A stretch of 64,000 bases of DNA, from NCBI RefSeq assembly GCF_000711825.1, contig NZ_JONJ01000011.1, forward strand, positions 62,001-126,000, written 5' to 3'. This DNA is from [Clostridium] aminophilum DSM 10710. GTDB lineage: Bacteria > Bacillota > Clostridia > Lachnospirales > Lachnospiraceae. A program made the position numbers and the translations under genes. Below are positions 17,039 through 35,740 of the stretch, one piece after another. Numbering within the stretch: position 1 is the first letter of the stretch; each line of letters opens with the position of its first letter. The notes below the pieces were generated by a model. The model made no database searches and was not told the DNA's origin. It was given only the letters and a program-made list of their open reading frames with translations.

Positions 17039-19414
17039 CTATCCGAGTATCCGGTATACCAGAACCTCATTTGAGAGATCCGGCTCGGCCTTATAGCGGG
17101 AGAGGCCTTCTCCGCCGAGATAAACCAGCTTTCCGAAGACCGAGTCGGCAAGGTCGGAGGCCACCATGGAAAACAGGGTATCATTCCCGTTGTCAGAAAG
17201 GATGACCGTCCAGCGAGGTTCCGCTTCTTTATCCCGATTGGGAGTTTCTGTCAGCGCGGATTTTTCGGCCTGATCAGGAGTTTGGGCCAGAGCGGGAGTT
17301 TCTGCCGGAACAGGAGGTTTCTCCAAAAGATCCTGCTCCTGCGCATATTCTCTGCATCCGTTACGTCCCGCGCAGATCACCCGTTCCACACGCTTCGGCT
17401 GTTCCACGGAAGGTTCTTCCGAAAGAGAAGTGCGGACAGACCAGCCGCGTTCGCTCTTTTCAAGGATCACATAATATCCGTTCCCACTGTCAATGACGGT
17501 GCGTCCGCTTTCGGAAAGGTGAATCGGCATTCGATTCACTTCCCAGGCAAAACTTACGGATTCTTTGGCCTTTTCCGTCATGGTCCTTCCGAAAATGGGG
17601 AACCAGTGGGAGATCCACGGCATATCGCCGGTGATGACGCATTCCGTAAGCGGCGGATTCTCCGGAAAAAGAAGAGCTGTGATCTCGTCGGCCTGAGCCT
17701 CAGAAACGTCTCGGTTCAGGAGTTTTTTCCGGGCATCCGGCTTGCTGCCGGAGAGCAGATCATCCATGAAGAGAAGCGTTTCCTCCGTTTCGCCGAAGGC
17801 GGAGAACATCCGGCTGTAGCCCGCGTCTCCGCTGCCGGAAAGCATGCGGAAGATATTTGCCGACAGGACCTCATTTTCCGTGGAAAAAGCTCTGGAAATG
17901 AAGAAGGTGCGCTGGCCGGTCTGGCTTCCTCCGTCAAAAAGGGTTCTTCTTTTGCCCTTGTCTTCCAGAAAGTATCCGTAATCCCACCAGGTTGCCAGAA
18001 CGGTATCCTCCGGCGTATTCTCTCTGATTTTCAGAAGGCAGTCCTCCACCGTCCTGTGTGACCAGACATCTTCTGCGGGGACAGAGCAGATATACCGGTA
18101 TACGCCGCATACGCCACCAAGTGCCGGAATCAGCAGAAGCACCGGGATCACCCTCGGACAAAATGACCGGAACTTCCGCTTCTGCCGGTCTGTCCGGCCG
18201 CAGACGGTTACGGTCAGGTTTCCTGCCAGAATCGCCGCGGGACCGGAATAGAGCATGATAAAGCGTTTTCCCTTAAAAGAGAGTACCAGCGTGATTCCAT
18301 ACCAGAGGAGAAGCAGAAGGTACTCGAACCGGACGTCTTTCCGGATGATCCGCCGGATGAGGATTGTGCTGCAAGCGAAAGCGGAACAAAAGGAGAGGAT
18401 TCCGCCCGAGAGGCTGATGATGCCGGCGGTTTCCGAGAACGTGTTCAGGCAGAACAGATCGGAAACCGTTCCGTCCCAGAGGAGCGGGGGCTGCAGCTCG
18501 TTGATGGAGGAAAAGACGTTCGGGAACAGGCCGCCGCTTTCTTCTCCGGAAAAGATCCGGCCAACGATCGAGCGAACGTTTGTGAAAAGATTCCTCTCCG
18601 GAATCAGGAGTATGCCCAAAATCCCTGCGGAGAGCAGGAGCGGGGCAAAAGAGAACGGCCGCTTTCCGCGGTCACTTTTCCATGTGAGAAGCGTGAAAAG
18701 GAGAAGTGCTCCGGCAAAGATCACCGGGAACATATAATAGACATACCAGCTTTGCGAAAGAGCGATAAAGCTCACAAAGAATGCGAGACCGTATACGATC
18801 ACGGTCTTACGGTTCTCTGTCTGCCAGCCGTTTACAAGCTTCACCCCGAAATAAAAGAAGAAACAGGACAACCAGATGATTACGCAGTCGGTATCATAGA
18901 ATCCGGGTACCGTATTGTACAGATAACTTAAATTCAGGGCGGACAATACGGATGCCGCGATGGCTCCGAACATCCCGCTCATCTCAAAGGTGAGGAGGAA
19001 GACCGGGATCACCACCAGTACAGAAAGGAAGGGACTCAGCCAGTAAGCCGTCTGCTCCAGACTCTGGGAAGCAAAAATGGAGATCAGGCGGTTGGCGGCA
19101 ATCGCAAGGTATCCCATCAGGGGCTTGTAGTCGGAAGCGTCTCTTCCTTCGGGAGCATAGCTGAAACTGTCCCAGGGCACGCCGTCTTTTACCGTATCTC
19201 CCGGATGCCCGTATAACGCAAGATCTCTTGTCATCCGCAGGTGGTAATAGCAGTCCATGTCTTCGAGATACGGCAGGCCGGTCTCTCTGTCCAGGAGAAC
19301 ATCACTCTGGGACGCGATCTCGCGGTAGAAAGCCAGACGGGGCAAGACGGAAAGAAGCATGAGACAAAGGATCACGGCTGATATCATTAAGGCGCGTCCG
19401 ATGCTGCTTTTCAT
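17039..19414 (-). CDS. STT3/AglB/PglB-type oligosaccharyltransferase homologue
   Basis: The 791-residue protein has about a dozen hydrophobic segments in its first 440 residues and a soluble C-terminal part. Three oligosaccharyltransferase signatures occur in order: an acidic first-loop motif EDMDCYYHLRM (about 50-60), a second acidic loop PGFYDTDCV (about 168-177) and the catalytic signature WWDYGYF (about 476-482) followed by DGGSQ. The family moves a lipid-linked glycan onto Asn of secreted proteins. The C-terminal region contains a Pro/Ala/Glu/Thr-rich repetitive linker (about 700-735). No glycosyltransferases or flippase for the lipid-linked glycan are nearby. A GT-C enzyme other than a true protein oligosaccharyltransferase remains possible. 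Confidence 0.82.
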   Translation of the reverse strand: MKSSIGRALMISAVILCLMLLSVLPRLAFYREIASQSDVLLDRETGLPYLEDMDCYYHLRMTRDLALYGHPGDTVKDGVPWDSFSYAPEGRDASDYKPLMGYLAIAANRLISIFASQSLEQTAYWLSPFLSVLVVIPVFLLTFEMSGMFGAIAASVLSALNLSYLYNTVPGFYDTDCVIIWLSCFFFYFGVKLVNGWQTENRKTVIVYGLAFFVSFIALSQSWYVYYMFPVIFAGALLLFTLLTWKSDRGKRPFSFAPLLLSAGILGILLIPERNLFTNVRSIVGRIFSGEESGGLFPNVFSSINELQPPLLWDGTVSDLFCLNTFSETAGIISLSGGILSFCSAFACSTILIRRIIRKDVRFEYLLLLLWYGITLVLSFKGKRFIMLYSGPAAILAGNLTVTVCGRTDRQKRKFRSFCPRVIPVLLLIPALGGVCGVYRYICSVPAEDVWSHRTVEDCLLKIRENTPEDTVLATWWDYGYFLEDKGKRRTLFDGGSQTGQRTFFISRAFSTENEVLSANIFRMLSGSGDAGYSRMFSAFGETEETLLFMDDLLSGSKPDARKKLLNRDVSEAQADEITALLFPENPPLTECVITGDMPWISHWFPIFGRTMTEKAKESVSFAWEVNRMPIHLSESGRTVIDSGNGYYVILEKSERGWSVRTSLSEEPSVEQPKRVERVICAGRNGCREYAQEQDLLEKPPVPAETPALAQTPDQAEKSALTETPNRDKEAEPRWTVILSDNGNDTLFSMVASDLADSVFGKLVYLGGEGLSRYKAEPDLSNEVLVYRILG

Positions 19415-22330: not shown

Positions 22331-23833
22331 ATGATCACCGGTGAATTAAAAAATAAAATTGACGGAATATGGGATATCTTTGCAGCAGGCGGTCTGGCGA
22401 ATCCTCTGGAAGTCATTGAGCAGATTACCTATCTCATGTTTATCCGGGATCTGGATGATTCCGACAACAAGCGGGAGAAAGAGTGCGCAATGCTTGGTCT
22501 TCCGTATCAGAGCATTTTTCCCGATGAAGTGACCATCGGAGCGCAGACCATCGACGGAAAACAGCTCAAATGGTCCGTCTTCCGTGACTTTCCCGCAGGA
22601 AGAATGTTCACGGTCATGCAGGAATGGGTTTTTCCGTTCATTAAGAATCTTCATGACGATAAGAACAGCGCCTATTCCAAGTATATGGATGAGGCGATCT
22701 TTAAGCTTCCGACGCCGCTGATTCTGTCCAAGGTGGTCGATGCCCTGGATGAAATCTACGATCTTATGAACAGTACGCAATCGGTTGATGTGCGAGGAGA
22801 TGTATACGAGTATTTCCTGAACAAGATTTCTGCAGCCGGTGCAATCGGCATGTTCCGCACGCCGAGACACATCATTCGGATGATGGTTGAAATGGTAGAT
22901 CCGAAGGCAGATGACACGATCTGCGATCCTGCCTGCGGTACATCGGGATTCCTTGTTATGGCGGCAGAGTATCTGAAGGACGTTAGAAAAGAAGAGATCT
23001 TCTTTGACAAGAATAAAAAAGAGCATTTTAAAACTACCATGTTCACCGGATATGATGTGGGAAGAACCATGCTTCGCATCGGCGCCATGAACATGATGAC
23101 CCATGGCATCGAGAATCCGGTGATCGAGTACCGCGACAGCCTTTCGGAACAGAATCCGGATCAGGAGATGTATTCGCTGATTCTGGCCAATCCGCCCTTT
23201 AAGGGAAGTCTGGATGCCGATGCGGTATCAGCGGATCTTCTCCGCGTCTGCAAGACCAAGAAGACGGAGCTTTTGTTCCTGGCATTGTTCCTCCGTATGC
23301 TGAAAGTTGGCGGACGCTGCGCCTGCATCGTTCCGGACGGCGTTCTCTTTGGCTCTTCGAAGGCTCACAAAGATATCCGGAAAAAGATTGTGGAGGATAA
23401 CCGTCTGGAAGCCGTCATTTCCATGCCGTCCGGCGTATTTAAACCGTATGCCGGGGTATCGACGGCAATTCTGATCTTTACCAAGACCGGACACGGCGGA
23501 ACGGATCAGGTATGGTTCTATGATATGACAGCAGACGGTTTCAGTCTGGATGATAAGCGAACTCCGGTGGATGAAACGGACATTCCGGATATCATCGAAC
23601 GGTTTAAACATCTGGATCAGGAAAAAGACCGGAAACGCACAGAAAAGTCTTTCATGGTTTCGAAAGAAGAGATTCAGGAAAATGATTACGACCTGTCCAT
23701 CAACAAGTATAAAGAAGTTGAATATCAGAAAGTTGAGTATCCGCCGACATCCGAGATCATGGCCAATATCCGCGAACTGGAGAGCCAGATCGAAAAAGAG
23801 ATGGATGAGCTGGAGAAGCTGCTGAATCTGTGA
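22331..23833 (+). CDS. hsdM: Type I restriction-modification system DNA methyltransferase subunit
   Basis: N6-adenine methyltransferase subunit of a type I restriction-modification enzyme. The 500-residue protein has an N-terminal helical HsdM domain (about 1-130), the AdoMet-binding motif DPACGTSGFLVMA (about 198-210) and the catalytic NPPFKG (about 286-291). The C-terminal helices (about 440-500) should contact HsdS. Its partners hsdS and hsdR are on the same strand but 0.9 and 6.1 kb downstream, separated by unrelated elements. The gene begins three bases after a relic stop codon and carries a gggggag site. Confidence 0.95.
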   Translation: MITGELKNKIDGIWDIFAAGGLANPLEVIEQITYLMFIRDLDDSDNKREKECAMLGLPYQSIFPDEVTIGAQTIDGKQLKWSVFRDFPAGRMFTVMQEWVFPFIKNLHDDKNSAYSKYMDEAIFKLPTPLILSKVVDALDEIYDLMNSTQSVDVRGDVYEYFLNKISAAGAIGMFRTPRHIIRMMVEMVDPKADDTICDPACGTSGFLVMAAEYLKDVRKEEIFFDKNKKEHFKTTMFTGYDVGRTMLRIGAMNMMTHGIENPVIEYRDSLSEQNPDQEMYSLILANPPFKGSLDADAVSADLLRVCKTKKTELLFLALFLRMLKVGGRCACIVPDGVLFGSSKAHKDIRKKIVEDNRLEAVISMPSGVFKPYAGVSTAILIFTKTGHGGTDQVWFYDMTADGFSLDDKRTPVDETDIPDIIERFKHLDQEKDRKRTEKSFMVSKEEIQENDYDLSINKYKEVEYQKVEYPPTSEIMANIRELESQIEKEMDELEKLLNL

Positions 23834-23839
23834 GTTTGA

Positions 23840-24214
23840 GTTTGGAGGCGGTATGAGGGTAAAACGGCTGAAGCTGGTCTTCCAGAGCCAGAATATAGTC
23901 AGTCAGAGTTCATGCTGTATGCTACGCTCAAAAATAAAAACTGGGGGAAGGATGATGCATCATGGATGGTGCCCATACAAGATAGCATACAAGATAGCAT
24001 ACAAGATGGTATACAGGATGATGCCTTGGTCGAGTTTTGCTCTGTTCCGAGAAGCAGGAAAGAAATGATGGCTTATCTAAAACTTGAGAATAGGAAGAGT
24101 TTCACAGATTACCATTTAAGACCTTTGCTTGAAAAGGGAAAAATTGTAATGACGATCCCTGAAAAACCTAATAGTAAGAACCAAAAATATGTAAAAAATA
24201 AAGCATGGAAGTAG
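23840..24214 (+). pseudogene. Relic: C-terminal part of an AlbA_2/AAA_4-type ATP-binding regulator
   Basis: About 124 codons remain. The frame reads AEAGLPEPEYSQSEFML, then a SIQD-type short repeat (IQDSIQDSIQDGIQDD), then CSVPRSRKEMMAYLKL and IPEKPNSKNQKY. This is the usual C-terminal arrangement of large ATP-binding Schlafen/AlbA_2 regulators: a repeat linker and a winged helix. The N-terminal domain is absent and the frame has no start codon before 23912. Translation from 23912 would give a 100-residue winged-helix protein, possibly still expressed as part of the hsdM transcript. Confidence 0.65.
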
Positions 24215-24334
24215 GGTAAGTGGACGTTGGGAATTTTCGAATTTTTATCAAGTAATTAAATTGAGATTTGTAGAGGAAACGAGGAGTGCGCATGGGGCAC
24301 TCAAAGTAATTCTATATTACAACTGAATATTTGT

Positions 24335-24363
24335 TTGACGATAATAAGCGGTGATGATAAAAT
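24335..24363 (+). promoter_or_regulatory. Promoter of the antitoxin RNA (Hol-Tox locus)
   Basis: TTGACG (24335-24340), 17 bp, TAAAAT (24358-24363). It drives a short RNA toward the convergent toxin gene. Between 24215 and 24334 nothing else is recognisable. Confidence 0.7.
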
Positions 24364-24369
24364 TGTATT

Positions 24370-24465
24370 AATTAAAGGTGCTACCGGTAGACGGTTAGCC
24401 CTGGATCATATTAAGCAATTATAAAATAACCGCTCAGTCTGGCAGGACAATGGGCGGTTATTTTT
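24370..24465 (+). ncRNA. Putative antisense antitoxin RNA, convergent to the Hol-Tox gene
   Basis: An RNA of about 95 nt from the promoter at 24335-24363 to the bidirectional terminator. It carries GTGCTACCGGTAGACGG (24378-24394), which resembles an element in the toxin mRNA leader (minus strand 24633-24665), and overlaps the toxin mRNA 3' end. This is the layout of Fst/par-type type I systems. No coding frame is evident. Confidence 0.6.
24424..24465. terminator. Bidirectional terminator shared by toxin mRNA and antitoxin RNA
   Basis: The arms aaaataaccgc and gcggttattttt surround a loop of about 20 bases. The last codons of the toxin fall inside the 3' arm. Confidence 0.85.
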
Positions 24466-24559
24466 GTGTCTTGGAATCATGCTTGCCAAACATGTAACCA
24501 AGACTAAAGAAAGTTCCACACAGTGCAAGCACTGCAATAAGGTCACTGATGGTGAGCAT
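24458..24559 (-). CDS. Putative holin-like toxin (Hol-Tox family), type I toxin
   Basis: The 33-residue peptide starts MLTISDLIAVLALCGTFF and ends GYMFGKHDSKTQK: one transmembrane helix and a short charged tail, as in the Hol-Tox family of Firmicute type I toxins, which act on the membrane. A strong GGAGG lies nine bases before the ATG. Its own minus-strand promoter gives a leader of about 107 nt with strong hairpins (agtcc/ggact and cagagg/cctctg), and a convergent RNA overlaps its 3' end. The locus sits between hsdM and hsdS, so it may help keep the restriction system. Function is inferred from family and layout. Confidence 0.75.
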   Translation of the reverse strand: MLTISDLIAVLALCGTFFSLGYMFGKHDSKTQK

Positions 24560-24672
24560 AAGCAAATACCTCCGACAAAGATTTCTCAATTGAGATTTCT
24601 ATGATGAACAGAGGCCACAGTCCTCTGGAAAAGGACTAACCGCCTACCGTGATTACTGGTAGCACTGAAAAT

Positions 24673-24701
24673 ATTATACCAAACAAATGTTCTTGAATCA
24701 A
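24673..24701 (-). promoter_or_regulatory. Promoter of the Hol-Tox toxin mRNA
   Basis: On the minus strand TTGATT (24696-24701), 17 bp, and a perfect TATAAT (24673-24678). Confidence 0.82.
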
Positions 24702-24725
24702 AAGAAAGATTTGTAGGGATGATAG

Positions 24726-25865
24726 ATGGAATATAGATTGGGTCAAATATGTAAATTTCAGTCTGGAGGAACTCCAGCAAAGGGGAATTCTGAGTACTTC
24801 AATGGGAATATTCCTTGGATAACTACAACTGCATTAAATGGTTCAGAGATAAACGATCATGATGCAGTGGACTGGATAACAGAAAAGGCAATTAACGAGA
24901 GTGCAGCCAAGATTGTACCAGCAAATTCTATTATGGTTGGTACACGTGTTGGAGTTGGAAAAGTAGCAATAAATAAAGTGCCCATGTCAACAAGCCAAGA
25001 TATTATTTCTTTGTTAGATATAGCTGAAGATAAGTGGGACAAGGATTATCTTTGCAAACTAATACAGGCAAACTATGCATTTCTTAATTCACAAGCACGT
25101 GGTGCAACGATTAAGGGAATAAAAATAGATGTACTTGCAGCCTTGAAAGTGCCAGAAATACCGCTAGAGAAACAACGTAAAGTATCTGATGTGATTAATA
25201 AGACTAGGGGTATAATTGATCAACGACGGAAAGAATTAGAAAGATTAGATGAACTTATCAAAGCCCGATTTGTTGAGCTCTTTGGATATCACGCTGACAA
25301 TAATATGACACTTGAAGAGTGTTGTTCGAATATTACAGGCGGTGGAACTCCTTCAATGCAACATCCCGAGTTTTATGGTGGTAATATCCCATTTATTAAG
25401 TCAGGAGATGTGAAAGGTACGCAGGTCACGGAAGGAGCACTATGGCTAACAGAAGAGGCATTAAATAGAGGTAAGACAAAACTAATACCCAAAGGATCTA
25501 TAGTAGTTGTTGTAAGAAGTGCAGCTCTGCTTCATAAATTTAGCATTGCAGTAAGTGCCAATGATTTGGTAATAAATCAAGACTTAAAGGCATTAACGCC
25601 TTCTAAAGACTTCCTACCGGAGTTTCTAATGTGGTCCATTAAATCTCAAGAACAGATTCTTCTTGGGAAAGTACAGACTATGCTTACGAGCCACATTCGA
25701 ATAGAAGACCTTTTGGGATTAAAAGTACATAAAGCTTCTATGGGGGAGCAAATAGCTTTCGTTGATTTTCTTCGACAAGTCGACAAATCAAAAGTTGCCG
25801 TCCAGAAGTCCTTGGAAGAAACACAAAAACTGTTTGATAGCCTGATGCAAGAATATTTTGGATAA
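24726..25865 (+). CDS. hsdS: Type I restriction-modification specificity subunit
   Basis: Sets the recognition sequence of the type I enzyme. The 379-residue protein has two target-recognition domains, each opening with a similar motif (QSGGTPAKGNSEYFNGNIPW near residue 13 and GGGTPSMQHPEFYGGNIPF near 204), each followed by a coiled-coil spacer (about 145-190 and 350-379). The sequence is visibly richer in A/T than the neighbouring genes, which fits horizontal exchange of specificity genes. Part of its C-terminal spacer (25791-25840) is duplicated at 27545-27594. Confidence 0.93.
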   Translation: MEYRLGQICKFQSGGTPAKGNSEYFNGNIPWITTTALNGSEINDHDAVDWITEKAINESAAKIVPANSIMVGTRVGVGKVAINKVPMSTSQDIISLLDIAEDKWDKDYLCKLIQANYAFLNSQARGATIKGIKIDVLAALKVPEIPLEKQRKVSDVINKTRGIIDQRRKELERLDELIKARFVELFGYHADNNMTLEECCSNITGGGTPSMQHPEFYGGNIPFIKSGDVKGTQVTEGALWLTEEALNRGKTKLIPKGSIVVVVRSAALLHKFSIAVSANDLVINQDLKALTPSKDFLPEFLMWSIKSQEQILLGKVQTMLTSHIRIEDLLGLKVHKASMGEQIAFVDFLRQVDKSKVAVQKSLEETQKLFDSLMQEYFG

Positions 25866-25880
25866 CGGAGAAGACTTCGT

Positions 25881-26095
25881 ATGAACGAAGAATCATTTTC
25901 TTTTGTGGTATATATGCTTCATGCCTGTGCAATAAATGGGGAAAGAGACCGTCGGAAGTATATAGCCTCCTGAGCAGCGGAGATTGTATAAACAGCCTTT
26001 TAGTGGAACATTACGAGATTCTCCATACACAGGGGACGGACTTTATCGTTCAGGACATCACTGATTATTTGAAGAACAGAGGAATACGGATATGA
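25881..26095 (+). pseudogene. DUF3791-family gene, frameshifted
   Basis: The start MNEESFSFVVYMLHACAING and, in a second frame, LLVEHYEILHTQGTDFIVQD form one DUF3791-like protein of about 71 residues. The two parts are in different frames, joined near 25942-25955, with a TGA closing the first. DUF3791 genes usually precede DUF3990 genes, as here, where the stop overlaps the next start. It looks like an inactivated antitoxin-like partner, unless the shift is a sequencing error. Confidence 0.7.
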
Positions 26096-26262
26096 TCGTA
26101 TACCATGGAAGCATTGATGTTGTGCAGAATCCGGATGTGAATCATTCATTTCGTCCGCTTGACTTCGGTATGGGATTTTATGTAACAACCGTCAAGATTG
26201 CGTTTATCACGCAGAAGGCAATTGATCAGTTGTTGACATTTGACTCCTATTATGAGGTGTGA
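26092..26262 (+). pseudogene. DUF3990-family gene, internally deleted
   Basis: A 56-residue remnant. The start MIVYHGSIDVVQNPDVNHSF and LDFGMGFYVTT match the N terminus of DUF3990 proteins (normally roughly 150-170 residues, ADP-ribosyltransferase-like as I recall), and the end ITQKAIDQLLTFDSYYEV matches their C terminus. About 100 residues between are gone, including most of the presumed active site. It overlaps the DUF3791 stop by four bases. Confidence 0.7.
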
Positions 26263-26264
26263 GC

Positions 26265-26488
26265 ATGGATGAAAAGGTTTTGGAACAGGTATATCAGGAA
26301 AATCTGGAAGAAAGATTGATTGCATACTTCGCGAAAAAAACGGTCTCTCGCTCGAAAAGGCGATGGAAATCTATTATAAAAGCAGACTTTCCAACCTGAT
26401 TTACGACGGTGTCAATGATATTCAGTATCTTGACTACAAAGTTTTAGCAGAATATCTGCAGAGGGAAAGCACAGAACTTTTGAAATAA
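26265..26488 (+). pseudogene. Third gene of the DUF3791-DUF3990 operon, one-base frameshift
   Basis: The intended protein would read RLIAYFAKKNGLSLEKAME and YDGVNDIQYLDYKVLAEYL, about 75 residues, but the A-run at 26334-26340 has seven A where eight would keep the frame. A paralogue with an intact frame lies at 27590-27769 at roughly 80 percent nucleotide identity. The family often accompanies DUF3990 genes; its role is not known to me. Confidence 0.65.
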
Positions 26489-26565
26489 GACGATTATGGC
26501 TGAAGGATGTTGGTACACAGGAGCGTGTGAAAGTTTTTCTGTAAATGAGATATCCTAAGATAATT

Positions 26566-26606
26566 AACAAGCTGGATAATGGCAAATCCATTGTTCAGCT
26601 TGTTTT
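26566..26606 (+). terminator. Terminator after the DUF3990-type operon
   Basis: The arms aacaagctg and cagcttgtt, with inner aatgg/ccatt pairing and TTTT. A possible -10 (TAGAAT, 26645-26650) for the next gene follows. Confidence 0.75.
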
Positions 26607-26769
26607 GACTCTACGTAATCCCGTTGCTTTTGTAAAGAATTATGTTAGAATACATCTTATATTGGAAGTTAAATGACTAATCAAATCGGGATTTGGCGAG
26701 ATGGTATAGCAGTATATGGCAAGTGACATATTCCTGAAATACAGCAGATAACGGAGAAAGGAGAAGCCG

Positions 26770-27534
26770 ATGATTACAGATTCGTTTGATGATAAATCCC
26801 CTGCCAAGATCAATATAAAGAAAAACGAGAATGCCATTCAGGTTGATGCGGTCATTTACACATTTTCTGAGGAAATTGAAAAATATGTGATTGCTCACTA
26901 TGACTGCGAGAAAGTCGGAGAATACGCATTGGCGTGCGGAGCAACTTCGGTATATCTGCTCAGGCACCACGGGAAGAAAATCGGGTTTTTCAGAACCTGG
27001 GTAGGAGCGCCTGCCTGTATCTGCCCGATTGAAGAATTGTCAACTGTCCTGAATACGAAAAAGATCATCCACTATGGCGGAGCAGGATGCCTTGACAAGG
27101 AAATTGCCAGAGGCAAGGTCATGATTCCGACAGAAGCCTACAGAGATGAAGGAACCTCCTATCATTATGCGCTTGCATCTGACTATATCCGGATCAAAAA
27201 CCATGATATCGTAAAAGCTTTTATGGAAGAAAACCGGATCCCATATGTTTTGGGTAAAACCTGGACTACAGACGCTTTCTATCGGGAAACCGTCAATAAC
27301 TTTGAAAAGCACAAGGCGGACGGCTGCATTTCGGTTGAAATGGAAGGTTCTGCTGTTCAGGCAGTCTGTGATTTCCGCGGGCTGGAAGTGTACATGTTCT
27401 TTACAAGCGGAGATCTGCTGGATGCACCAGAATGGACTGACAGAAAAAAGAAAGGGCAAATCGAACACACGCAACATGATCCGGGACATTTTGACATAGC
27501 ACTTGCGCTCGCCGAATATGTGGTTGATCTATAG
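26770..27534 (+). CDS. Nucleoside phosphorylase-like protein (PNP/UDP family)
   Basis: The 254-residue cytoplasmic enzyme of the PNP_UDP_1 fold shows IIHYGGAGCLDKEIARG (phosphate/ribose region), DEGTSYHYA, KTWTTDAFYRET and SVEMEGSAVQAVCDF, the ribose-binding Met-Glu motif of the family, then FFTSGDLL. It most resembles uridine phosphorylase-like members that split nucleosides with phosphate. An AAAGGAGAAG site precedes the ATG. It stands between two copies of a small DUF3990-associated gene, so the gene or its surroundings have been rearranged. Confidence 0.85.
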   Translation: MITDSFDDKSPAKINIKKNENAIQVDAVIYTFSEEIEKYVIAHYDCEKVGEYALACGATSVYLLRHHGKKIGFFRTWVGAPACICPIEELSTVLNTKKIIHYGGAGCLDKEIARGKVMIPTEAYRDEGTSYHYALASDYIRIKNHDIVKAFMEENRIPYVLGKTWTTDAFYRETVNNFEKHKADGCISVEMEGSAVQAVCDFRGLEVYMFFTSGDLLDAPEWTDRKKKGQIEHTQHDPGHFDIALALAEYVVDL

Positions 27535-27769
27535 CAGCAACTTCAAAGTTGCCGTCCAGAAGTCTCTGGAAGAAACACAGACACTATTTGACAGATTGAT
27601 TTCATACTTCGCAGAGAAAAATAGTATTTCACTCGAAAAGGCGATGGAAATCTATTATACCAGAAGACTGTCCAATCTGATCTACGACGGTGCCAATGAT
27701 ATCCAGTATCTTGACTACAAGGTTTTGGCGGAATTTCTGCAACAGGAAAACACTGAGCGTTTGAAATAA
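27503..27769 (+). CDS. Chimeric small ORF: HsdS tail fragment joined to DUF3990-operon third gene
   Basis: The 88-codon frame from the ATG at 27503 first overlaps the phosphorylase gene, then reads KVAVQKSLEETQTLFDRL, nearly the same as the HsdS C terminus, then ISYFAEKNSISLEKAMEIYY to the end, a paralogue of the gene at 26265-26488. It therefore looks like a recombination product. Whether it is translated is unclear: no good ribosome-binding site stands before 27503. Confidence 0.45.
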   Translation: MRSPNMWLIYSSNFKVAVQKSLEETQTLFDRLISYFAEKNSISLEKAMEIYYTRRLSNLIYDGANDIQYLDYKVLAEFLQQENTERLK

Positions 27770-27841
27770 GCCAATTATGGCTGTAAGATATGTGCAAACG
27801 TTGTGGAAGAAATGCAGTGAGTTCTTCTACGAAAATGAGGT

Positions 27842-27869
27842 TTGACTATTTTACAATTATTGTTATAAT
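27842..27869 (+). promoter_or_regulatory. Promoter of the second antisense RNA
   Basis: TTGACT (27842-27847), 16 bp, and a perfect TATAAT (27864-27869). Confidence 0.75.
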
Positions 27870-27875
27870 TGGGTT

Positions 27876-27944
27876 AGGCAAAGAAACGTAAATAGTATGT
27901 CCAAGACTGCGAAAAAGCTAGGAGTTGCAGCTCCTAGCTTTTTC
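27876..27944 (+). ncRNA. Putative short antitoxin RNA convergent to the Fst-like gene
   Basis: An RNA of about 70 nt ending in a perfect terminator hairpin (27912-27944) that faces the end of the small minus-strand gene at 27968-28075. No coding frame. It is inferred only from promoter, terminator and layout. Confidence 0.55.
27912..27944. terminator. Bidirectional terminator at the Fst-like locus
   Basis: The arms aaaaagctaggag and ctcctagcttttt pair perfectly around a six-base loop. Confidence 0.92.
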
Positions 27945-27967
27945 TATTCCGTTATGGTCAAGGTGGC

Positions 27968-28075
27968 TTAATCCTTAGGCTCATTGCCATCTTCATCTCT
28001 GTCGAACCATTTGCAAATGTAATAGGCTGTTACACTTGCCAAAACAGAGATTAGAAACGAAATGAGTATATCCAA
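27968..28075 (-). CDS. Fst/Ldr-like small membrane peptide, putative type I toxin
   Basis: The 35-residue peptide starts MDILISFLISVLASVTAYY and ends CKWFDRDEDGNEPKD: one hydrophobic helix, a tryptophan-bearing boundary and a charged tail, the pattern of Fst-type toxins. It uses TTG at 28073-28075 with AGGGGG six bases upstream. That Shine-Dalgarno is paired in a hairpin (28081-28109), a typical control in these systems. The frame continues upstream to an ATG at 28159, but that reads through a terminator. I found no clear promoter of its own; it may depend on read-through from the lipoprotein gene. Confidence 0.6.
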   Translation of the reverse strand: MDILISFLISVLASVTAYYICKWFDRDEDGNEPKD

Positions 28076-28080
28076 AACTG

Positions 28081-28109
28081 CACCCCCTTCCTGTGCCTGT
28101 CTAGGGGTG
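28081..28109 (-). promoter_or_regulatory. Hairpin sequestering the toxin Shine-Dalgarno
   Basis: On the minus strand caccccta pairs with agggggtg across a 14-base loop, covering AGGGGG just before the TTG start. Confidence 0.6.
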
Positions 28110-28120
28110 GCAACATAGAT

Positions 28121-28157
28121 GAAAAAGCCCCAAGAGTTGCCGCTCTTGGGGCTTTTC
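28121..28157. terminator. Terminator of the LRR lipoprotein gene
   Basis: The arms aaaagccccaagag and ctcttggggctttt around a short loop; bidirectional. Confidence 0.9.
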
Positions 28158-28180
28158 ATAGTCGCTATTCGTTAATCTTT

Positions 28181-29695
28181 TTATTTTCCGGGAAAGGGCG
28201 TGTTGCAGATCACTTCTGTGTCGCCGAGATTGCGCGAACCTTTCTCGATAAAGGCGTCCCAATCCTCCTGCGATCCCTCATAATAGACGGTCATCTTGTC
28301 ATGATGTGTCCACAGGTAGACCACGGGATTTGCTTCCGGTTCCCGCTTCTCCGGTGGAGTGTACACGTAGTCTTCGGAGAAGTCCATTCGGGATTCTGTA
28401 GTAATAGAGTAAAGGATCGAGTCCCCGATCTCCGCGTTGACAAAATCCTTTGCGAGATAGATCTCTCCGTTGGTGAAACCGAACGCACATCGATCCACTT
28501 TTTTCACGGTTCCGGGGATATACAGTTTTTTCGTCTTATCACAGAAGTCGAAGCAGTACCGGTCGATGGTTTCCACACTGGCGGGAACGGTGTATTCCTC
28601 GGCTTCCTTTTTGCGCGGATAATCATAAAGCATCTTCATATCTTTGGAATACAGGACGCCGTCCACGGATTTCAGAACCGGACAGTTTTCGTCCACGGTG
28701 TATTCCTCCATAAAGGGGAACTCCAGGAAAAGGCGGTCACCGACTTCCGACACGGATGCCGGGATGTGGATGGTCTTAAGGAAATAGTTCTGTTCAAATG
28801 CGCCTTCTGCGATTCGTGTCACGGTCTGTGGAATATCGTAATGTTTTTCCTCTTTGTAGATCGGATAGCAGAACAGCACCGACAGGTCTTTGCTGAACAG
28901 GACGCCGTCCTTCGCCGTATAATTCGGGTTGCCCTCTGCAATGGTGAAATCATGCAAAGAGAGGCTGTTATAGAAGGCGGTTTCCGCGATATAGTAGGCA
29001 GACGCCGGGATGCTGATGTTGTCGTAGAAGTCGTTGGAGTTGAACGCGTGCTTGCCGATGATCTCGATCCCTTCCGGGATCACCAGTGCCTTGTGAAGTT
29101 TTACTTCACCAAATGCGTAGTCTCCGATCTCACGAAGGCCCTTTGGGAATGGCATCTCTTCCAGAGAGGAGTCATTCATAAAGGCGTAGTCGCCGATATA
29201 TTCCACACTGTCCGGAAGCCGCGCGTTCTCACACCACATCATGTTGTAAAAAGCATAGGCACCGATCGTGGTGATGCCGTCGCCCACAACGATCCGGGTT
29301 ACGGAATCTACATAATCCTTCGCCGGAGAGGGATCGTCCTTACTGTAGTCTTTCATCGGCCCCTGTCCGGTGACGGTCAGGGTGCCGGAAGCGGCGTCGA
29401 AGGACCAGTTCAGACTGTCTTCCGTGACTTTTGTGTGGTGCGTCAGCGTACCGAGTTTTTCAACGATCGCTTTGTCTTCAGCACTGAGTTTTGGTTCCCA
29501 TTTGCTGATGGACTCTTCGGTTGCCTGCGTCTCGCCCTCGGCTGATGTGGAAGCTGCCTCTGCGGCTGCCTGGGACTCTGTTGTGGCAGGAACAGCCGTG
29601 GTCGCTGTAGCCGACGAGCCGGAACAGCTGCAGACGGAAATGATTATGGATAATACAATGGTAAGACTAAGATACTTCTTCAAACGTTTTCTCAT
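28181..29695 (-). CDS. Lipoprotein with LRR_5/BspA-like repeats
   Basis: The 504-residue exported lipoprotein has signal peptide MRKRLKKYLSLTIVLSIIIS and a lipobox at SVCSC, then a Thr/Ala/Ser-rich tether to about residue 65. From about 110 to 400 it carries leucine-rich LRR_5 units, seen in IGAYAFYN, IGDYAFMN, IGDYAFGE, IGKHAFNS and IAEGAFEQ, plus two DGVLFSKD/DGVLYSKD loops. Such proteins sit on the cell surface and are thought to bind host or neighbour ligands; the ligand is unknown. Signal peptide and promoter closely resemble those of the lipoprotein at 33462-35591. Confidence 0.88.
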   Translation of the reverse strand: MRKRLKKYLSLTIVLSIIISVCSCSGSSATATTAVPATTESQAAAEAASTSAEGETQATEESISKWEPKLSAEDKAIVEKLGTLTHHTKVTEDSLNWSFDAASGTLTVTGQGPMKDYSKDDPSPAKDYVDSVTRIVVGDGITTIGAYAFYNMMWCENARLPDSVEYIGDYAFMNDSSLEEMPFPKGLREIGDYAFGEVKLHKALVIPEGIEIIGKHAFNSNDFYDNISIPASAYYIAETAFYNSLSLHDFTIAEGNPNYTAKDGVLFSKDLSVLFCYPIYKEEKHYDIPQTVTRIAEGAFEQNYFLKTIHIPASVSEVGDRLFLEFPFMEEYTVDENCPVLKSVDGVLYSKDMKMLYDYPRKKEAEEYTVPASVETIDRYCFDFCDKTKKLYIPGTVKKVDRCAFGFTNGEIYLAKDFVNAEIGDSILYSITTESRMDFSEDYVYTPPEKREPEANPVVYLWTHHDKMTVYYEGSQEDWDAFIEKGSRNLGDTEVICNTPFPGK

Positions 29696-29768
29696 AAGAG
29701 CCTCCTTGGTTACAAATGATATCTTTGTGAAAGCCTGAAGAATGATGATCCGGGTGTCTGTTGTAATC

Positions 29769-29777
29769 AGTATAACA
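29769..29777 (-). promoter_or_regulatory. Extended -10 of the LRR lipoprotein promoter
   Basis: The minus strand reads TGTTATACT, an extended -10. The same string stands before the lipoprotein at 33462-35591 and the hydrolase at 41430-42371. No good -35 is seen. Confidence 0.6.
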
Positions 29778-29863
29778 TGAATTATGCTGATTCAATTCCG
29801 CTTTTAACTAAAACTATCCGACATTTAAAAGTAAAACAACAAGAAATCAGAATACCGACCTGT

Positions 29864-29892
29864 TTGACGATTTTAAGCCGCAATGTTAGTAT
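29864..29892 (+). promoter_or_regulatory. Promoter of hsdR
   Basis: TTGACG (29864-29869), 17 bp, TAGTAT (29887-29892), 27 bp before the start codon. Confidence 0.65.
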
Positions 29893-29919
29893 GAACATAA
29901 GAGAGAGGCGACTATTATT

Positions 29920-32900
29920 ATGAAAACAAATTTTGATTATCTGAAGAAAGAACCAAAATTTAACAGTTTTTCTGATGTAGCGATCTCGGCGGAAAGGATC
30001 GTTCTCATGGACCCGGAGGCAAGTATTATCAATTGCCGCCGCGCGATGGAGTTTGCCCTGAAATGGATGTATTCCGTGGATGATGGACTGGAGATGCCGT
30101 ATCAGGATAATCTCAAAACGCTGATGGATGCGGAAGACTATCGTCAGATCATCGGACCGGACCTGTGGAACCGGATGGATTTCATCCGGCGCTGCGGAAA
30201 CAATGTGGCGCACAGCAGAAAGAAACTGGGCCGTGATGAGGCGATGCTCTGTCTGGAGAACCTCTTTATCTATCTCGATTTCATTGCTTACTGCTATGCG
30301 GATGTCTACGAAGAACGGAGCTATGACCGGGGACTCATTCGGGAAAGAATCCGAAGCATGAAGGAGAACCGGGAAAGAGCGGAAGCAGTACAGAATGAGC
30401 TTCAAAAAGAGATTGAGAACTCGGCCAGAAAAGAGCTGGATTTACAAAAACTCCGGGAAGAAAATGAGGCGCTGAAGAAAGAATTATCCGAGCGCCGTCA
30501 GGAAAAACAGGAGACGTACGTTTCCAAACCCATCGATCTCTCAGAATACAAGACGAGAAAAATCTATATCGACTCCCTTCTTATTGATGCCGGATGGACC
30601 GAAGGAAAAGACTGGCTCAATGAAGTCGAACTTCCGGGAATGCCGAATAAATCGGAAGTGGGATATGCGGATTACGTTCTCTATGACGATTCCCATAAGC
30701 CGCTGGCGGTGATCGAGGCAAAGAAAACCTGCTTTGATCCGGGAAAAGGACGGCAGCAGGCGAAGCATTACGCGGATATTCTGGAAAAGCAGTACGGGCG
30801 GCGACCGGTGACATTTCTCACCAATGGATTCGATACGAGGATCATCGATAATCAGTATCCGGAACGGAAAGTCGCCGGCATTTATTCCAAACGGGATCTG
30901 GAAAAACTTTTCAATCTGCAGCGGATGAGGACCAGTCTGAAACATGTGACAGTCGATAAGAAGATCGCCGGGCGCTATTATCAGGAAGGCGCTATCAAGG
31001 CGGTCTGTGACAGCTTTGACGAGAAAAATCGCCGCAAAGCGCTTCTTGTCATGGCGACAGGGTCGGGAAAGACCAGAACCGTGATCGCACTCTGCAAGGT
31101 CCTTCTGGAAGCCGGATGGGTGAAGAATATTCTGTTCCTCGCGGACCGGAATTCTCTTGTGACACAGGCGAAACGGAATTTCACCAATCTTCTGCAAGAC
31201 CTGTCCTGCACGAATCTCTGTGAGGATAAGGAGCGGGTGAACTCCCACTGTATTTTTTCTACCTATCAGACGATGATCGGATGTATTGATACGCTCAAGG
31301 ATGAAAAGGGGAAACTCTTTACCTGCGGACATTTCGACCTTGTCATCTGTGATGAGGCCCACCGCTCGATCTATAACAAGTACAAGGATATCTTTACCTA
31401 CTTTGACGCGCCGTTAGTCGGACTGACGGCAACGCCGAAAGATGAGATCGATAAGAATACTTATTCCATTTTTGAACTGGAAAACGGCGTTCCGACCTAT
31501 GGCTATGATCTCGCTCAGGCGGTAAAGGACGGGTATCTGGTGGATTATATGTCGGTGGAGACGAAGCTGAAATTCATCGAGCAGGGAATCACCTACGCGG
31601 AACTCTCGGAAGAAGAGAAGGCCGCCTACGAGGACACCTTTGAAGATGAAAACGGGGAAATGCCGGAGAAAATCAGTTCCTCCGCTCTCAATACCTGGCT
31701 TTTCAATGATGACACCATTCGCCAGGTCCTTCATATCGTCATGCGTGACGGATTAAAGGTGCATTACGGCGAGAAGATCGGAAAGACGATTATTTTTGCC
31801 AAAAACCACTCTCATGCGGAGAAGATCCTCGAAGTCTTCAACAAGGAATATCCAAATCTGGCGAAGGGCGCAAATGGTCAGCCCTATGCGAAGGTCATTG
31901 ATAACTATATGACTTATGCCCAGAGTGCCATCGATGAGTTCTCTGAAGCCGATAAACTCCCGCAGATCGCGATTTCGGTGGATATGCTGGATACCGGTAT
32001 CGACGTTCCGGAAGTGCTGAATCTTGTGTTTTTCAAGAAGGTGATGAGTAAGGCAAAGTTTTGGCAGATGATCGGACGCGGAACGAGACTTTGCCCCGGT
32101 CTCATGGATGGCGAGGATAAGTCGAAATTCTATATTTTTGATTTCTGCGGAAACTTTGAATTCTTCCGGATGGAGAAGGGACGCCCGACGTCGAACATCC
32201 TGCCTCTGCAGGGGGCGATCTTTCATCTGGAGTTCCAGATTGCCTTTAAATTGCAGGATATTCAGTATCAGGTGGACCGCCTGATCGCCTATCGAAAGCA
32301 GCTGGTAGAACATATGGCGGGCAAGGTCCGGGAACTGGAACGGGAAAATTTTGCTGTCAGACAGCACATCCGGTATGTAGATCAGTTCTCATCGGAAGAG
32401 AATTATCAGGCACTTTCCTTTGAGGACACGATTCTGGTGAAGACGGAGGTCGCGCCGCTGATCCAGCCGGACAGCGATGAGGCATCGGCAGTCCGGTTTG
32501 ATGCGCTGATCTATGGGCTGGAACTGGCGAAGCTGGCCGGTAAGAACTTTGGCCGGCTGAAGACGGACCTTTTGAGCAAGGTTGCCGGCATTGCATCTGT
32601 TGCCAATATACCGGAGATTTCGGAGCAGAAAGACCTCATCAACCGGATTCTTCAGACCGACTATGTGGATCGGGCGGGAGTGGATGACTTTGAGTTTATC
32701 CGCGATAAACTCCGGAATCTGATGAAGTACATGCCAAAGCATAAAATGCGGTACGACACGGATTTTACGGATGATATTCTGGATACACAGTGGAATGAAT
32801 CGGAACTGGAAAATGACGAGCTGAAGGATTATCGAGCGGCCGCAGAGTTTTACATTCGCCAGCACCAGGACAATCTCGTCATCGTGAAGCTCCGTACCAA

Positions 32901-33282
32901 TAAGCCGCTGACACATATGGATATCGAATCACTGGAAGCGATTCTGTGGAATGAGATTGGAACGAAGGAAGATTATGAAAGAGAGTACGGCCAGAAGCCG
33001 CTCGGAGAGTTTGTCCGCAGTATCGTCGGTCTTGACATGAATGCGGCGAAGGAAGCATTTTCAGCGTTTTTGGACGGAGCGAAAATGGACAGCCGGCAGA
33101 TTTATTTTGTGAATCAGATTGTCGAGTACATTGTCCATAATGGAATGATGACCGATCTGTCGGTCCTTCAGGATTCTCCGTTTACCGATCGCGGAAGCGT
33201 GGTGGATATCTTTACGGATCTGTCGGTATGGGGATCCATCCGGAAAGTGATTGACTCGATCAATGCCAATGCGACGGCGTAA
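29920..33282 (+). CDS. hsdR: Type I restriction endonuclease subunit with N-terminal DUF4145
   Basis: Motor and nuclease subunit of the type I enzyme. The 1120-residue protein begins with a DUF4145 domain (about 1-125, INCRRAMEFALKWMY), then a coiled coil (about 145-205), an HSDR_N nuclease domain (about 210-320, with VIEAKK as the catalytic Glu-x-Lys), the SF2 helicase with Walker A MATGSGKTRT (about 375-384), DEAH (about 477) and GLTATPKDE, motif VI MIGRGTRLCPG and a helical C-terminal domain. It has its own promoter and is separated from hsdS by about 4 kb of other genes, so its expression is independent of hsdMS. Confidence 0.95.
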   Translation: MKTNFDYLKKEPKFNSFSDVAISAERIVLMDPEASIINCRRAMEFALKWMYSVDDGLEMPYQDNLKTLMDAEDYRQIIGPDLWNRMDFIRRCGNNVAHSRKKLGRDEAMLCLENLFIYLDFIAYCYADVYEERSYDRGLIRERIRSMKENRERAEAVQNELQKEIENSARKELDLQKLREENEALKKELSERRQEKQETYVSKPIDLSEYKTRKIYIDSLLIDAGWTEGKDWLNEVELPGMPNKSEVGYADYVLYDDSHKPLAVIEAKKTCFDPGKGRQQAKHYADILEKQYGRRPVTFLTNGFDTRIIDNQYPERKVAGIYSKRDLEKLFNLQRMRTSLKHVTVDKKIAGRYYQEGAIKAVCDSFDEKNRRKALLVMATGSGKTRTVIALCKVLLEAGWVKNILFLADRNSLVTQAKRNFTNLLQDLSCTNLCEDKERVNSHCIFSTYQTMIGCIDTLKDEKGKLFTCGHFDLVICDEAHRSIYNKYKDIFTYFDAPLVGLTATPKDEIDKNTYSIFELENGVPTYGYDLAQAVKDGYLVDYMSVETKLKFIEQGITYAELSEEEKAAYEDTFEDENGEMPEKISSSALNTWLFNDDTIRQVLHIVMRDGLKVHYGEKIGKTIIFAKNHSHAEKILEVFNKEYPNLAKGANGQPYAKVIDNYMTYAQSAIDEFSEADKLPQIAISVDMLDTGIDVPEVLNLVFFKKVMSKAKFWQMIGRGTRLCPGLMDGEDKSKFYIFDFCGNFEFFRMEKGRPTSNILPLQGAIFHLEFQIAFKLQDIQYQVDRLIAYRKQLVEHMAGKVRELERENFAVRQHIRYVDQFSSEENYQALSFEDTILVKTEVAPLIQPDSDEASAVRFDALIYGLELAKLAGKNFGRLKTDLLSKVAGIASVANIPEISEQKDLINRILQTDYVDRAGVDDFEFIRDKLRNLMKYMPKHKMRYDTDFTDDILDTQWNESELENDELKDYRAAAEFYIRQHQDNLVIVKLRTNKPLTHMDIESLEAILWNEIGTKEDYEREYGQKPLGEFVRSIVGLDMNAAKEAFSAFLDGAKMDSRQIYFVNQIVEYIVHNGMMTDLSVLQDSPFTDRGSVVDIFTDLSVWGSIRKVIDSINANATA

Positions 33283-33461: not shown

Positions 33462-35591
33462 TCAGTCGCCCAGGACGCAATCCCACGAGATTCCTCCGGA
33501 CACAACTTTATCATTGCTGATTACGTTGATGCCGCTCATGGTCATGTGAGTGCTGTCGGTAAGTGTGATGGTGATGGGGCCTTTGTTGGTCGGCGCGTCG
33601 ATGATCAGCACACTGCTGCTTTTCTCGGAAACGGTGCCGGGGTAGGACTTGCCGTTCGCCCCTTTTCCAAAGGCAACCAGGTTGTAGGAGTTGGCTCCGG
33701 TCTGGTCAATCTGAAAACCAAAGGCGGTCGGTTCACCGCTTTTGCCGACGATGTACCATTTGCCGGCAAAGGTATCCTTATCGTCGATGACTATTTCCGT
33801 CGTCGGATAGTCGAAACGGAACATTGCGCTTGTGACTGGTTCGTCGTTGTCGATATCGGCGTTCGGCTCATAGACATTCAGACGATCGGGCAGACCTGCC
33901 ATAATATAGCCGATCACCGTTGCTTCGGTCTTGATGGAACCGTCCGCGCTCAGTTTTCCGGTCCAGCTCTTGACGGCTTTCTCTGATTTCGCCGCAGGGC
34001 TGAGTTCTGCAAAGCGGATCCGATAGTCACGGAAGGACGGATCGGCCTTATTTTCCATGTTTTCGTGAATGTCAAAAGTGATCGTACGGTTCAGTTCCGC
34101 TTTCACTTCGTTCATGCTGTTCAGAAGGAGCTGTTCCGTCCTGCGCTGGTAATCCTTCTGCATCTCTTTCAGGATGGCGCTGGACAGACGCTGGTACATA
34201 CGCTCCTTGTACTGCTTGACGAGCACTTCCTCCTGATCTTTTGTGATCGTTCCGACGCGGCCTCCGGAGAAGTGTTCCGCAAAGTCGGTCTGCAGCTGCC
34301 ATACGACGTTATCGCTCTCTTTAAAGAACTTGCGGGCATAGGAATCGATCTCATCCTCGAGGTATTGTTTGAACTGTTTTTCGTCTCCCTCAGAGTCAGC
34401 GACCGCTTTGGCGACAATATCCCGCCATTCTTTGGTTTTTCTGGCCACGTGGCTGGTCCCGTAGTCCCTGCCGCCGGGGAATTTATCATTGTAATAGAGA
34501 TACAGGTTGTTGATTCGCTCGACCTTGTATCCCTGCGCGGCCTGCGCAAATTCCGTGATAGACCGGTCGATCATGCTGACGCCCACCAGACTGATGCCGA
34601 GAGCGGTATTCGCGCCGGCGCTGAGGGCAAACATGCCGGCATCCTTGTAGATCGTGAGGATGTCATCGCGGGTTTTTTCATCTTTGAGGATTTCAATTCC
34701 AAGGTTGACTGCGCTGAAGGCAAAGCCGACATTTCCCATCTTATCCCAGAAGCCCTCGTTGAGTTTTGCATATTTTTCCGTGAAGAAGAAAAGGTCGGAG
34801 AGCTGCATGGCTGTGCCGGCGTCATTTACCTTCGCGAAAGAGTTGTTGATATCCGTGAAGAAGTCGGTCATGGCGACTTCGCCGAGTTTGAAACATTTCT
34901 CACTGGACGCGCCGTTTGCCGCATATTCCGCAAGCGCCGCAGCAGATTCATCCAGATGGCCTCCGTAGAGTGACTCATAGAGCCCTTCGGAATCGATGGA
35001 CGAGATATAGGCTTTGCGAAGCCCCGCATTTTTCACTTCGAAGCAGCCGTATTTGGACAGATGATCCGTGTGGATGACGACTTCTCCGGCTTCCGCGTCC
35101 ACGTCAAAGAGCACATCCTCCCATTTGCCTGTCGATTCATTGAAATATTTGGCTCCGACACATTTCGCAGGGTCTTCCCCCGGATCGCAGAATTTTCCGT
35201 CATAGGGGATGCGGATGTCGATCCAGGTGTCCAGATCGTGCGTATCCCCGATATTGATTTCATACGTCGTTGCCTGCCAGTCTCCGTTTTCCGCGGTCTC
35301 CGTGCCGGCGGGCCGGATGCTGACATCCACCTCGTCTTCCGGATAATCGAACAGAAGAGGAGATAATTCCAGTTTCACCCCTGTTTTGCTGTCTGCGGTA
35401 AGGTTCTCAGAGGAGACTGTGACGGTCTCAGCGGGTTCCGGTTCCGCCTGCCGGTCGGCAATGCTCCCGGAAGCGCCGGTATTCTCTGCACTGTCTGGTT
35501 TTGATGCATTGTTGCCGGAACCGCCGCAGGCGGTGATAAGCAGGGAAAACACTACGGTAAGACTCAGATACTTCATCGAACGTTTTCTCAT
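33462..35591 (-). CDS. Large secreted lipoprotein of unknown function
   Basis: The 709-residue exported protein has signal peptide MRKRSMKYLSLTVVFSLLI and a clear lipobox ITAC at about 20-23, then a short acidic tether. The N-terminal region (about 70-200) is beta-rich; the middle (about 250-520) is helical with many Lys/Glu; the C terminus (about 580-709) has beta strands with GKWYIVG and TFAGKW, as in lipocalin-like ligand domains. I do not recognise the family. The start is set at 35591 because of an ideal AGGAGG; an upstream in-frame ATG at 35627 lacks one. Confidence 0.75.
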   Translation of the reverse strand: MRKRSMKYLSLTVVFSLLITACGGSGNNASKPDSAENTGASGSIADRQAEPEPAETVTVSSENLTADSKTGVKLELSPLLFDYPEDEVDVSIRPAGTETAENGDWQATTYEINIGDTHDLDTWIDIRIPYDGKFCDPGEDPAKCVGAKYFNESTGKWEDVLFDVDAEAGEVVIHTDHLSKYGCFEVKNAGLRKAYISSIDSEGLYESLYGGHLDESAAALAEYAANGASSEKCFKLGEVAMTDFFTDINNSFAKVNDAGTAMQLSDLFFFTEKYAKLNEGFWDKMGNVGFAFSAVNLGIEILKDEKTRDDILTIYKDAGMFALSAGANTALGISLVGVSMIDRSITEFAQAAQGYKVERINNLYLYYNDKFPGGRDYGTSHVARKTKEWRDIVAKAVADSEGDEKQFKQYLEDEIDSYARKFFKESDNVVWQLQTDFAEHFSGGRVGTITKDQEEVLVKQYKERMYQRLSSAILKEMQKDYQRRTEQLLLNSMNEVKAELNRTITFDIHENMENKADPSFRDYRIRFAELSPAAKSEKAVKSWTGKLSADGSIKTEATVIGYIMAGLPDRLNVYEPNADIDNDEPVTSAMFRFDYPTTEIVIDDKDTFAGKWYIVGKSGEPTAFGFQIDQTGANSYNLVAFGKGANGKSYPGTVSEKSSSVLIIDAPTNKGPITITLTDSTHMTMSGINVISNDKVVSGGISWDCVLGD

Positions 35592-35740
35592 AAGATCCTC
35601 CTTTATACGATATTTTTTTAAAACCATAAAAACAATATCCGGATGTCCGAAAGCACAGTTGTCTATGATACGCCCAAAGGAACAATAACCGCAGAATTCA
35701 ACGGAAGAAAAGGGAAATAATATTCAGTTTTGGTTATTTT

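Follow-up and report, generated by a model that had tools for sequence, protein, structure and literature searches.

Does a chromosome of the Clostridia encode a working N-oligosaccharyltransferase (OST), and if so, what would the enzyme modify? The question is raised by an open reading frame, here named stt3, in a stretch of 64,000 nucleotides from [Clostridium] aminophilum DSM 10710 (hereafter, the window). Among bacteria, to our knowledge, firm evidence of OST-mediated N-glycosylation is confined to some Gram-negative groups. According to a 2011 review, no case was then known from Gram-positive bacteria (PMC3068309), and our full-text searches of open-access journal literature found no report of it in Clostridia. 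We consider it probable that stt3 encodes a catalytically competent N-OST of the membrane, and that OSTs of clade A, the fully supported group of rumen Lachnospiraceae and related Clostridia to which its product belongs, are mostly encoded near a sequon-dense and likely dedicated acceptor. The stronger result lies outside the window and points to a largely unstudied OST system of rumen Clostridia, linked to sequon-dense exported proteins. With this genetic tie found in culturable rumen Lachnospiraceae, the question becomes directly testable; clade A also supplies glycoengineering with new OSTs whose sequon may be relaxed, and is relevant to the way in which rumen bacteria coat their surfaces.

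The stt3 gene and its product

The stt3 gene occupies positions 17039-19414 of the minus strand, starts with ATG and encodes 791 residues with no internal stop. The preliminary description of this locus had these coordinates exactly, though not the strand, and its proposal that a Clostridia chromosome encodes an STT3-type oligosaccharyltransferase holds on four counts: profile matches, motifs, tree position and fold. The enzyme is of the single-subunit STT3/PglB/AglB type. The protein matches the Pfam families PF02516 (STT3; 116.6 bits against a cut-off of 24.5, E=2.6e-33) and PF21436 (STT3/PglB core domain; 40.6 bits against 23, E=4.3e-10), and its best sequence relatives in the PDB are all OSTs, namely C. 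lari PglB (5ogl), human and yeast STT3, and archaeal AglB. It misses the NCBIfam cut-offs of the Campylobacter-type PglB equivalog NF050801 (61.7 against 1300 bits) and of the archaeosortase-associated archaeal AglB TIGR04154 (70.8 against 450 bits) by so much that it belongs to the superfamily but to neither of these named subfamilies.

Conserved motifs were examined in an alignment of 20 OSTs from clade A, a second Clostridia clade, B1 (three sequences), and methanogens (four sequences). Residues D54, Y56, R60, D174-T175-D176, S303, E306, R384, W476-W477-D478, G480, D494-G495-G496 and M598 are invariant and line up with the equivalent motifs of Campylobacter PglB. D54 (19253-19255, like all features below on the minus strand) lies in the first acidic loop motif, EDMDxYYHxR, and D174-T175-D176 (18887-18895) in the second, GFYDTD, which reads GYYDTD in Campylobacter PglB. 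The large external loop carries S303-x-x-E306 (SSINE; 18497-18508), the counterpart of the SVSE/TIxE motif, which aligns with Campylobacter TIxE. WWDYG spans residues 476-480 (17975-17989), with DGG at residues 494-496 (17927-17935) and an MxxI motif, M598-P-W-I601 (17612-17623), aligned with that of Campylobacter. In known OSTs, WWD and MxxI read the Ser or Thr of the sequon. Of this set, the WWDYG signature and both acidic motifs had been recognized earlier; SSINE, DGG and MxxI complete it.

The AlphaFold2 model (pLDDT 83.5, pTM 0.81) predicts a GT-C fold with a C-terminal globular domain. In a Foldseek search of the PDB, the structural comparison that had been proposed, C. lari PglB 5ogl ranked first (E=1e-18, TM 0.68 by target), followed by STT3A/B and AglB; the catalytic residues are intact, with no sign of a degenerate pocket. 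Non-OST GT-C enzymes (DPY19, ArnT, ALG12 and AftA) scored far more weakly, the first three at E of about 1e-6 or worse, and neither fold search, profiles nor tree places the protein with a non-OST GT-C family. The sole long disordered stretch of the model, residues 696-730 (17225-17329; pLDDT <50), is a Pro/Thr/Glu-rich segment of the C-terminal beta domain. The linker reported near the C terminus (about 699-730) is thus real and disordered, but it is a local insertion that is not conserved, being a gap in the nearest relative outside the species, L012. Overall, the stt3 product is very probably a working N-OST.

The mechanism that we propose begins with this single-subunit enzyme, which would sit in the cytoplasmic membrane of rumen Lachnospiraceae, its metal site held by D54, D174/D176 and E306. 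A Wzx-type flippase would carry a glycan pre-built on undecaprenyl diphosphate across to the outer face, where the OST would transfer it en bloc onto the Asn of N-x-S/T in proteins emerging from the Sec channel, with WWD and MxxI recognizing the sequon Ser/Thr. For most clade A relatives, the likely dedicated acceptor would be the secreted, sequon-dense surface protein encoded near the OST; in this strain, which has no linked acceptor or glycan genes, the donor may come from a glycan cluster elsewhere, such as that on contig C20. The gene, its family, motifs, fold and clade are observed, as are the linkage and the sequon excess in relatives; that the enzyme is active, draws on a lipid-linked donor and attaches the glycan to Asn is inferred, as are its targets in this strain.

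Gene neighbourhoods in clade A and in the window

Around the stt3 genes of clade A, a recurrent set of genes encodes a short DPM1-like GT2, a DUF2304 membrane protein, further GT2 and GT4 enzymes, LicD and a Wzx-type flippase (PF01943). A large secreted protein (0.7-1.3 kaa) is encoded near stt3 in nine of the twelve clade A loci outside [C.] aminophilum (L009, L013-L017 and L020-L022) and was not seen in L012, L018 or L019. The bodies of these acceptor-like proteins are unrelated, with beta-helix, Big_2, MBG or LysM domains or no clear Pfam domain; common to them is a signal region, RLTRxGLxxYxxxxCMxFTVCAE, that may be dedicated to export or sorting. In the protein at L013 (2003-5206), a tandem (NNTG)n stretch consists almost entirely of N-x-T sequons. 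At L022 (3190-5156), from a MAG, the acceptor-like gene beside stt3 is broken across two frames and contains a run of N, which makes its sequon count too low.

In the window, stt3 lies between a glyoxalase-like gene and an esterase on one side and a GntR regulator on the other, and no glycosyltransferase, Wzx flippase or other glycan gene was found within 5 kb. A MATE exporter, a member of the flippase superfamily typed as an efflux transporter, is 1.5 kb away. The description of the gene as an orphan is therefore accurate for this genome's locus only; in relatives, stt3 still has glycosyltransferase and flippase genes and that of a sequon-rich secreted protein for neighbours. GT2 genes still flank stt3 on both sides in L012, and its isolation in the window lineage was thus probably a late event.

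A lipid-linked glycan pathway elsewhere in the genome, which the preliminary description had suggested looking for, has candidates, none of them linked to stt3. They comprise four PF02397 sugar-phosphate (initiating) transferases, a cluster on contig C20 (4,6-dehydratase, DegT aminotransferase, PglC-sized PF02397, Wzx and NeuB/PseF-like genes) and a GT2 and DUF2304 pair on contig C7, all assigned at superfamily level only. Glycan clusters like that on C20 are widespread in Bacillota and do not necessarily supply an OST; clusters of this kind often produce capsule or flagellin sugars.

Potential acceptors in the window genome were assessed by counting N-x-[ST] sequons against the reversed motif [ST]-x-N, a control with the same composition expectation. 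The neighbouring esterase had been singled out for its sequons; these exist, but the four in its 607 residues stand against three reversed motifs, which is chance level, and we rejected it as an OST substrate. Exported proteins, called by a simple hydrophobicity rule in a sample of 1.25 Mb (40% of the genome), showed no sequon excess (373 against 362 reversed motifs). No homologue of the acceptor-like proteins was found in the window genome (G000) or in its genus mates G200 and G204.

The closest database locus, 98% identical, is that of [Clostridium] aminophilum KH1P1, from which the window stt3 differs by 28 synonymous and 19 non-synonymous changes. The resulting dN/dS of 0.22 indicates purifying selection on stt3 between these strains, although the value exceeds those of three neighbours (0.04-0.14). 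Could stt3 nevertheless be a relic, a former clade A OST that has lost its acceptor and glycan genes and now drifts? The window locus is broken up compared with its relatives, acceptor homologues are missing from the three genus genomes and from the 40% sample, and dN/dS is above that of the neighbours. We consider this unlikely, since the gene is full-length with all motifs intact, its dN/dS is well below 1, and it is intact in both of the genus genomes that carry it (two of six). With moderate confidence, we favour genuine Gram-positive N-glycosylation in rumen Clostridia, by a deep OST clade with an adjoining hyper-sequon surface glycoprotein and a plain N-x-T rule, in which the [C.] aminophilum OST would have been re-wired to unlinked donors and acceptors.

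Other differences between the two strains were observed around this locus. In KH1P1, a LysR-like regulator, a transporter and an amidohydrolase-like gene (assigned by eye; L011, 11012-14873) lie between stt3 and the GntR gene and are absent in the window. Further along the window is a Type I restriction-modification-like island (22331-33282), with an N6-MTase/HsdM gene (22331-23833), an HsdS-like gene (24726-25865) and a large ORF (29920-33282), where G+C falls to 0.38 from about 0.53. Relative to KH1P1, the methylase gene of this island has a dS of 0.32, against about 0.05 for neighbouring genes, which suggests replacement by recombination. Two minus-strand ORFs for secreted, lipoprotein-like products with very similar N termini (28181-29695 and 33462-35627) flank the large ORF.

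Sequon density of the putative acceptors

A sequon count judged by shuffling was considered too weak a control, because beta-helix repeats favour N-C-T and N-N-T; we instead used the reversed motif together with domain-matched proteins. Nine putative acceptors from the clade A loci contain 317 sequons, or 31 per 1000 residues, against 132 reversed motifs, and the imbalance between N-x-T and T-x-N is 224:78. Homologous beta-helix and Big_2 proteins from Lachnospiraceae, used as controls, gave 237:234 overall and 129:126 for N-x-T (acceptors against controls, p=3e-10). Removing one OST-positive control row (L203, genome G160) gave 228:229 and 123:123, with a Fisher p of 2e-10; in another control genome, G194, the PF02516 match is only below cut-off and contains stops. 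Taken singly, the excess is strong for both L009 proteins and for those of L015, L016 and L017, weaker for L013 and L021, and not significant for L020 and L014. Cytoplasmic proteins of the same loci showed 121 sequons to 114 reversed motifs.

Two of the acceptors are homologous, at 46% identity, and carry 27 sequons each with only six positions in common, as expected if number rather than position is selected. An ORF with a sequon excess of at least 9 lies within 5.2 kb of stt3 at 11 Clostridia OST loci, three of them in clade B, whereas no such ORF occurred in a sample of 1,238 drawn from the window genome and from a genus mate without an OST. We also considered the acidic −2 rule of PglB and rejected it for the putative acceptors: Asp or Glu precedes their sequons at −2 in 8.1% of cases against a background of 13.7%. 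This lack of enrichment makes it more likely that clade A follows a plain N-x-T rule like that of Desulfovibrio OSTs (PMC4894442), as far as the acceptor sequences indicate.

Might the sequons be incidental, the linked proteins being ordinary Asn-rich beta-helix or Ig surface proteins? Helix-type controls alone have a mild excess of 135:105, from which the acceptors still differ (p 2e-4), so part of the excess, but not all, is structural. Glycan clusters are, moreover, often found near large surface proteins, and L014 and L020 are not significant alone. Against this stand the even balance in domain-matched controls without an OST, the 27:8 ratio of each of the non-helix acceptors of L015 and L016, the N-x-T bias of 2.9 against 1.0 in controls, and the (NNTG)n tandem of L013. 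We regard incidental sequons as quite unlikely.

The same proteins bear on what the enzyme itself accepts. Gram-positive GT-C enzymes have been described as modifying wall polymers (PMC8035078), and the fold of the stt3 product is common to DPY19 and ArnT, at weaker scores, so an OST-like GT-C enzyme with a non-sequon acceptor (wall polymer, Ser/Thr, Trp or water) could be envisaged. With both sequon-reading motifs of known OSTs, WWD and MxxI, conserved, and with the linked proteins enriched in N-x-S/T and above all in N-x-T, we hold such an activity to be very unlikely.

Distribution, phylogeny and comparison with known systems

STT3 genes are rare in these bacteria. Only four of 200 Lachnospiraceae genomes have a match above the Pfam cut-off, and among 398 Bacillota genomes that of the window is the sole convincing PF02516 match, with one other barely at the cut-off; weak matches in other Bacillota are all but one below it. 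Our tree, a quick search with SH-aLRT support only, recovers individually supported groups, namely clade A, the Clostridia clades B1 and B2, the Methanobacteriota AglBs and the Campylobacter/Thermodesulfobacteria PglBs, and leaves their mutual branching order open. In this sequence phylogeny, clade A is a deep group that is distinct from Campylobacter PglB and does not lie within methanogen AglB. This position is compatible with a published tree in which bacterial OSTs fall among those of Euryarchaeota and at least two transfers are inferred (PMC4973528). A recent transfer of aglB from rumen Methanobrevibacter to the window bacterium is scarcely credible: Methanobacteriaceae AglBs are the best non-bacterial matches, but at only about 26-31% identity, and the tree puts the 36 Methanobacteriota sequences and clade A, a deep clade in itself, in two separate, fully supported groups.

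Methanobacteriaceae AglBs nonetheless have the highest identity to the window protein outside Clostridia, with the same surroundings of D54, DTD, SxxE and WWDYG; every catalytic motif is invariant between the two except at the MI/DK position, where methanogens have a DK-type motif (DMxxK) and clade A has MxxI. Campylobacter PglB (C. lari 5ogl and C. jejuni) is likewise a single-subunit bacterial OST with the same fold and the same acidic, SVSE/TIxE, WWDYG and MxxI motifs, but it shares only about 15% identity with the window protein in structural alignment and falls in a separate clade. Unlike Campylobacter pglB, the window stt3 lies outside any pgl operon, and the putative acceptors of clade A lack Asp/Glu enrichment at −2. 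The OST-linked glycosyltransferases and flippase of a pgl/agl-like pathway, missing around the window stt3, are present in most clade A relatives. The Desulfovibrio PglB homologues of relaxed sequon, bacterial OSTs from outside Campylobacter and of another phylum, accept plain N-x-T (PMC4894442), as is predicted for clade A.

Clades B1 and B2 (L024-L026, L028, L030, L033, L035-L037, L043, L056, L059 and L067) also comprise OSTs of rumen and gut Clostridia, and at L026, L036 and L043 a sequon-rich exported protein is again encoded within about 4 kb of the OST. They form separate supported clades at about 22-28% identity to the window protein, and their putative acceptors lack the signal region of clade A. 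A further Lachnospiraceae OST type of about 1000 residues (L010, L056 and L059) has no obvious sequon-rich neighbour. Lastly, a Proteobacteria MAG (L077, 8573-14214) carries two adjoining STT3-like ORFs of about 930 residues each, which fall in a separate deep group.
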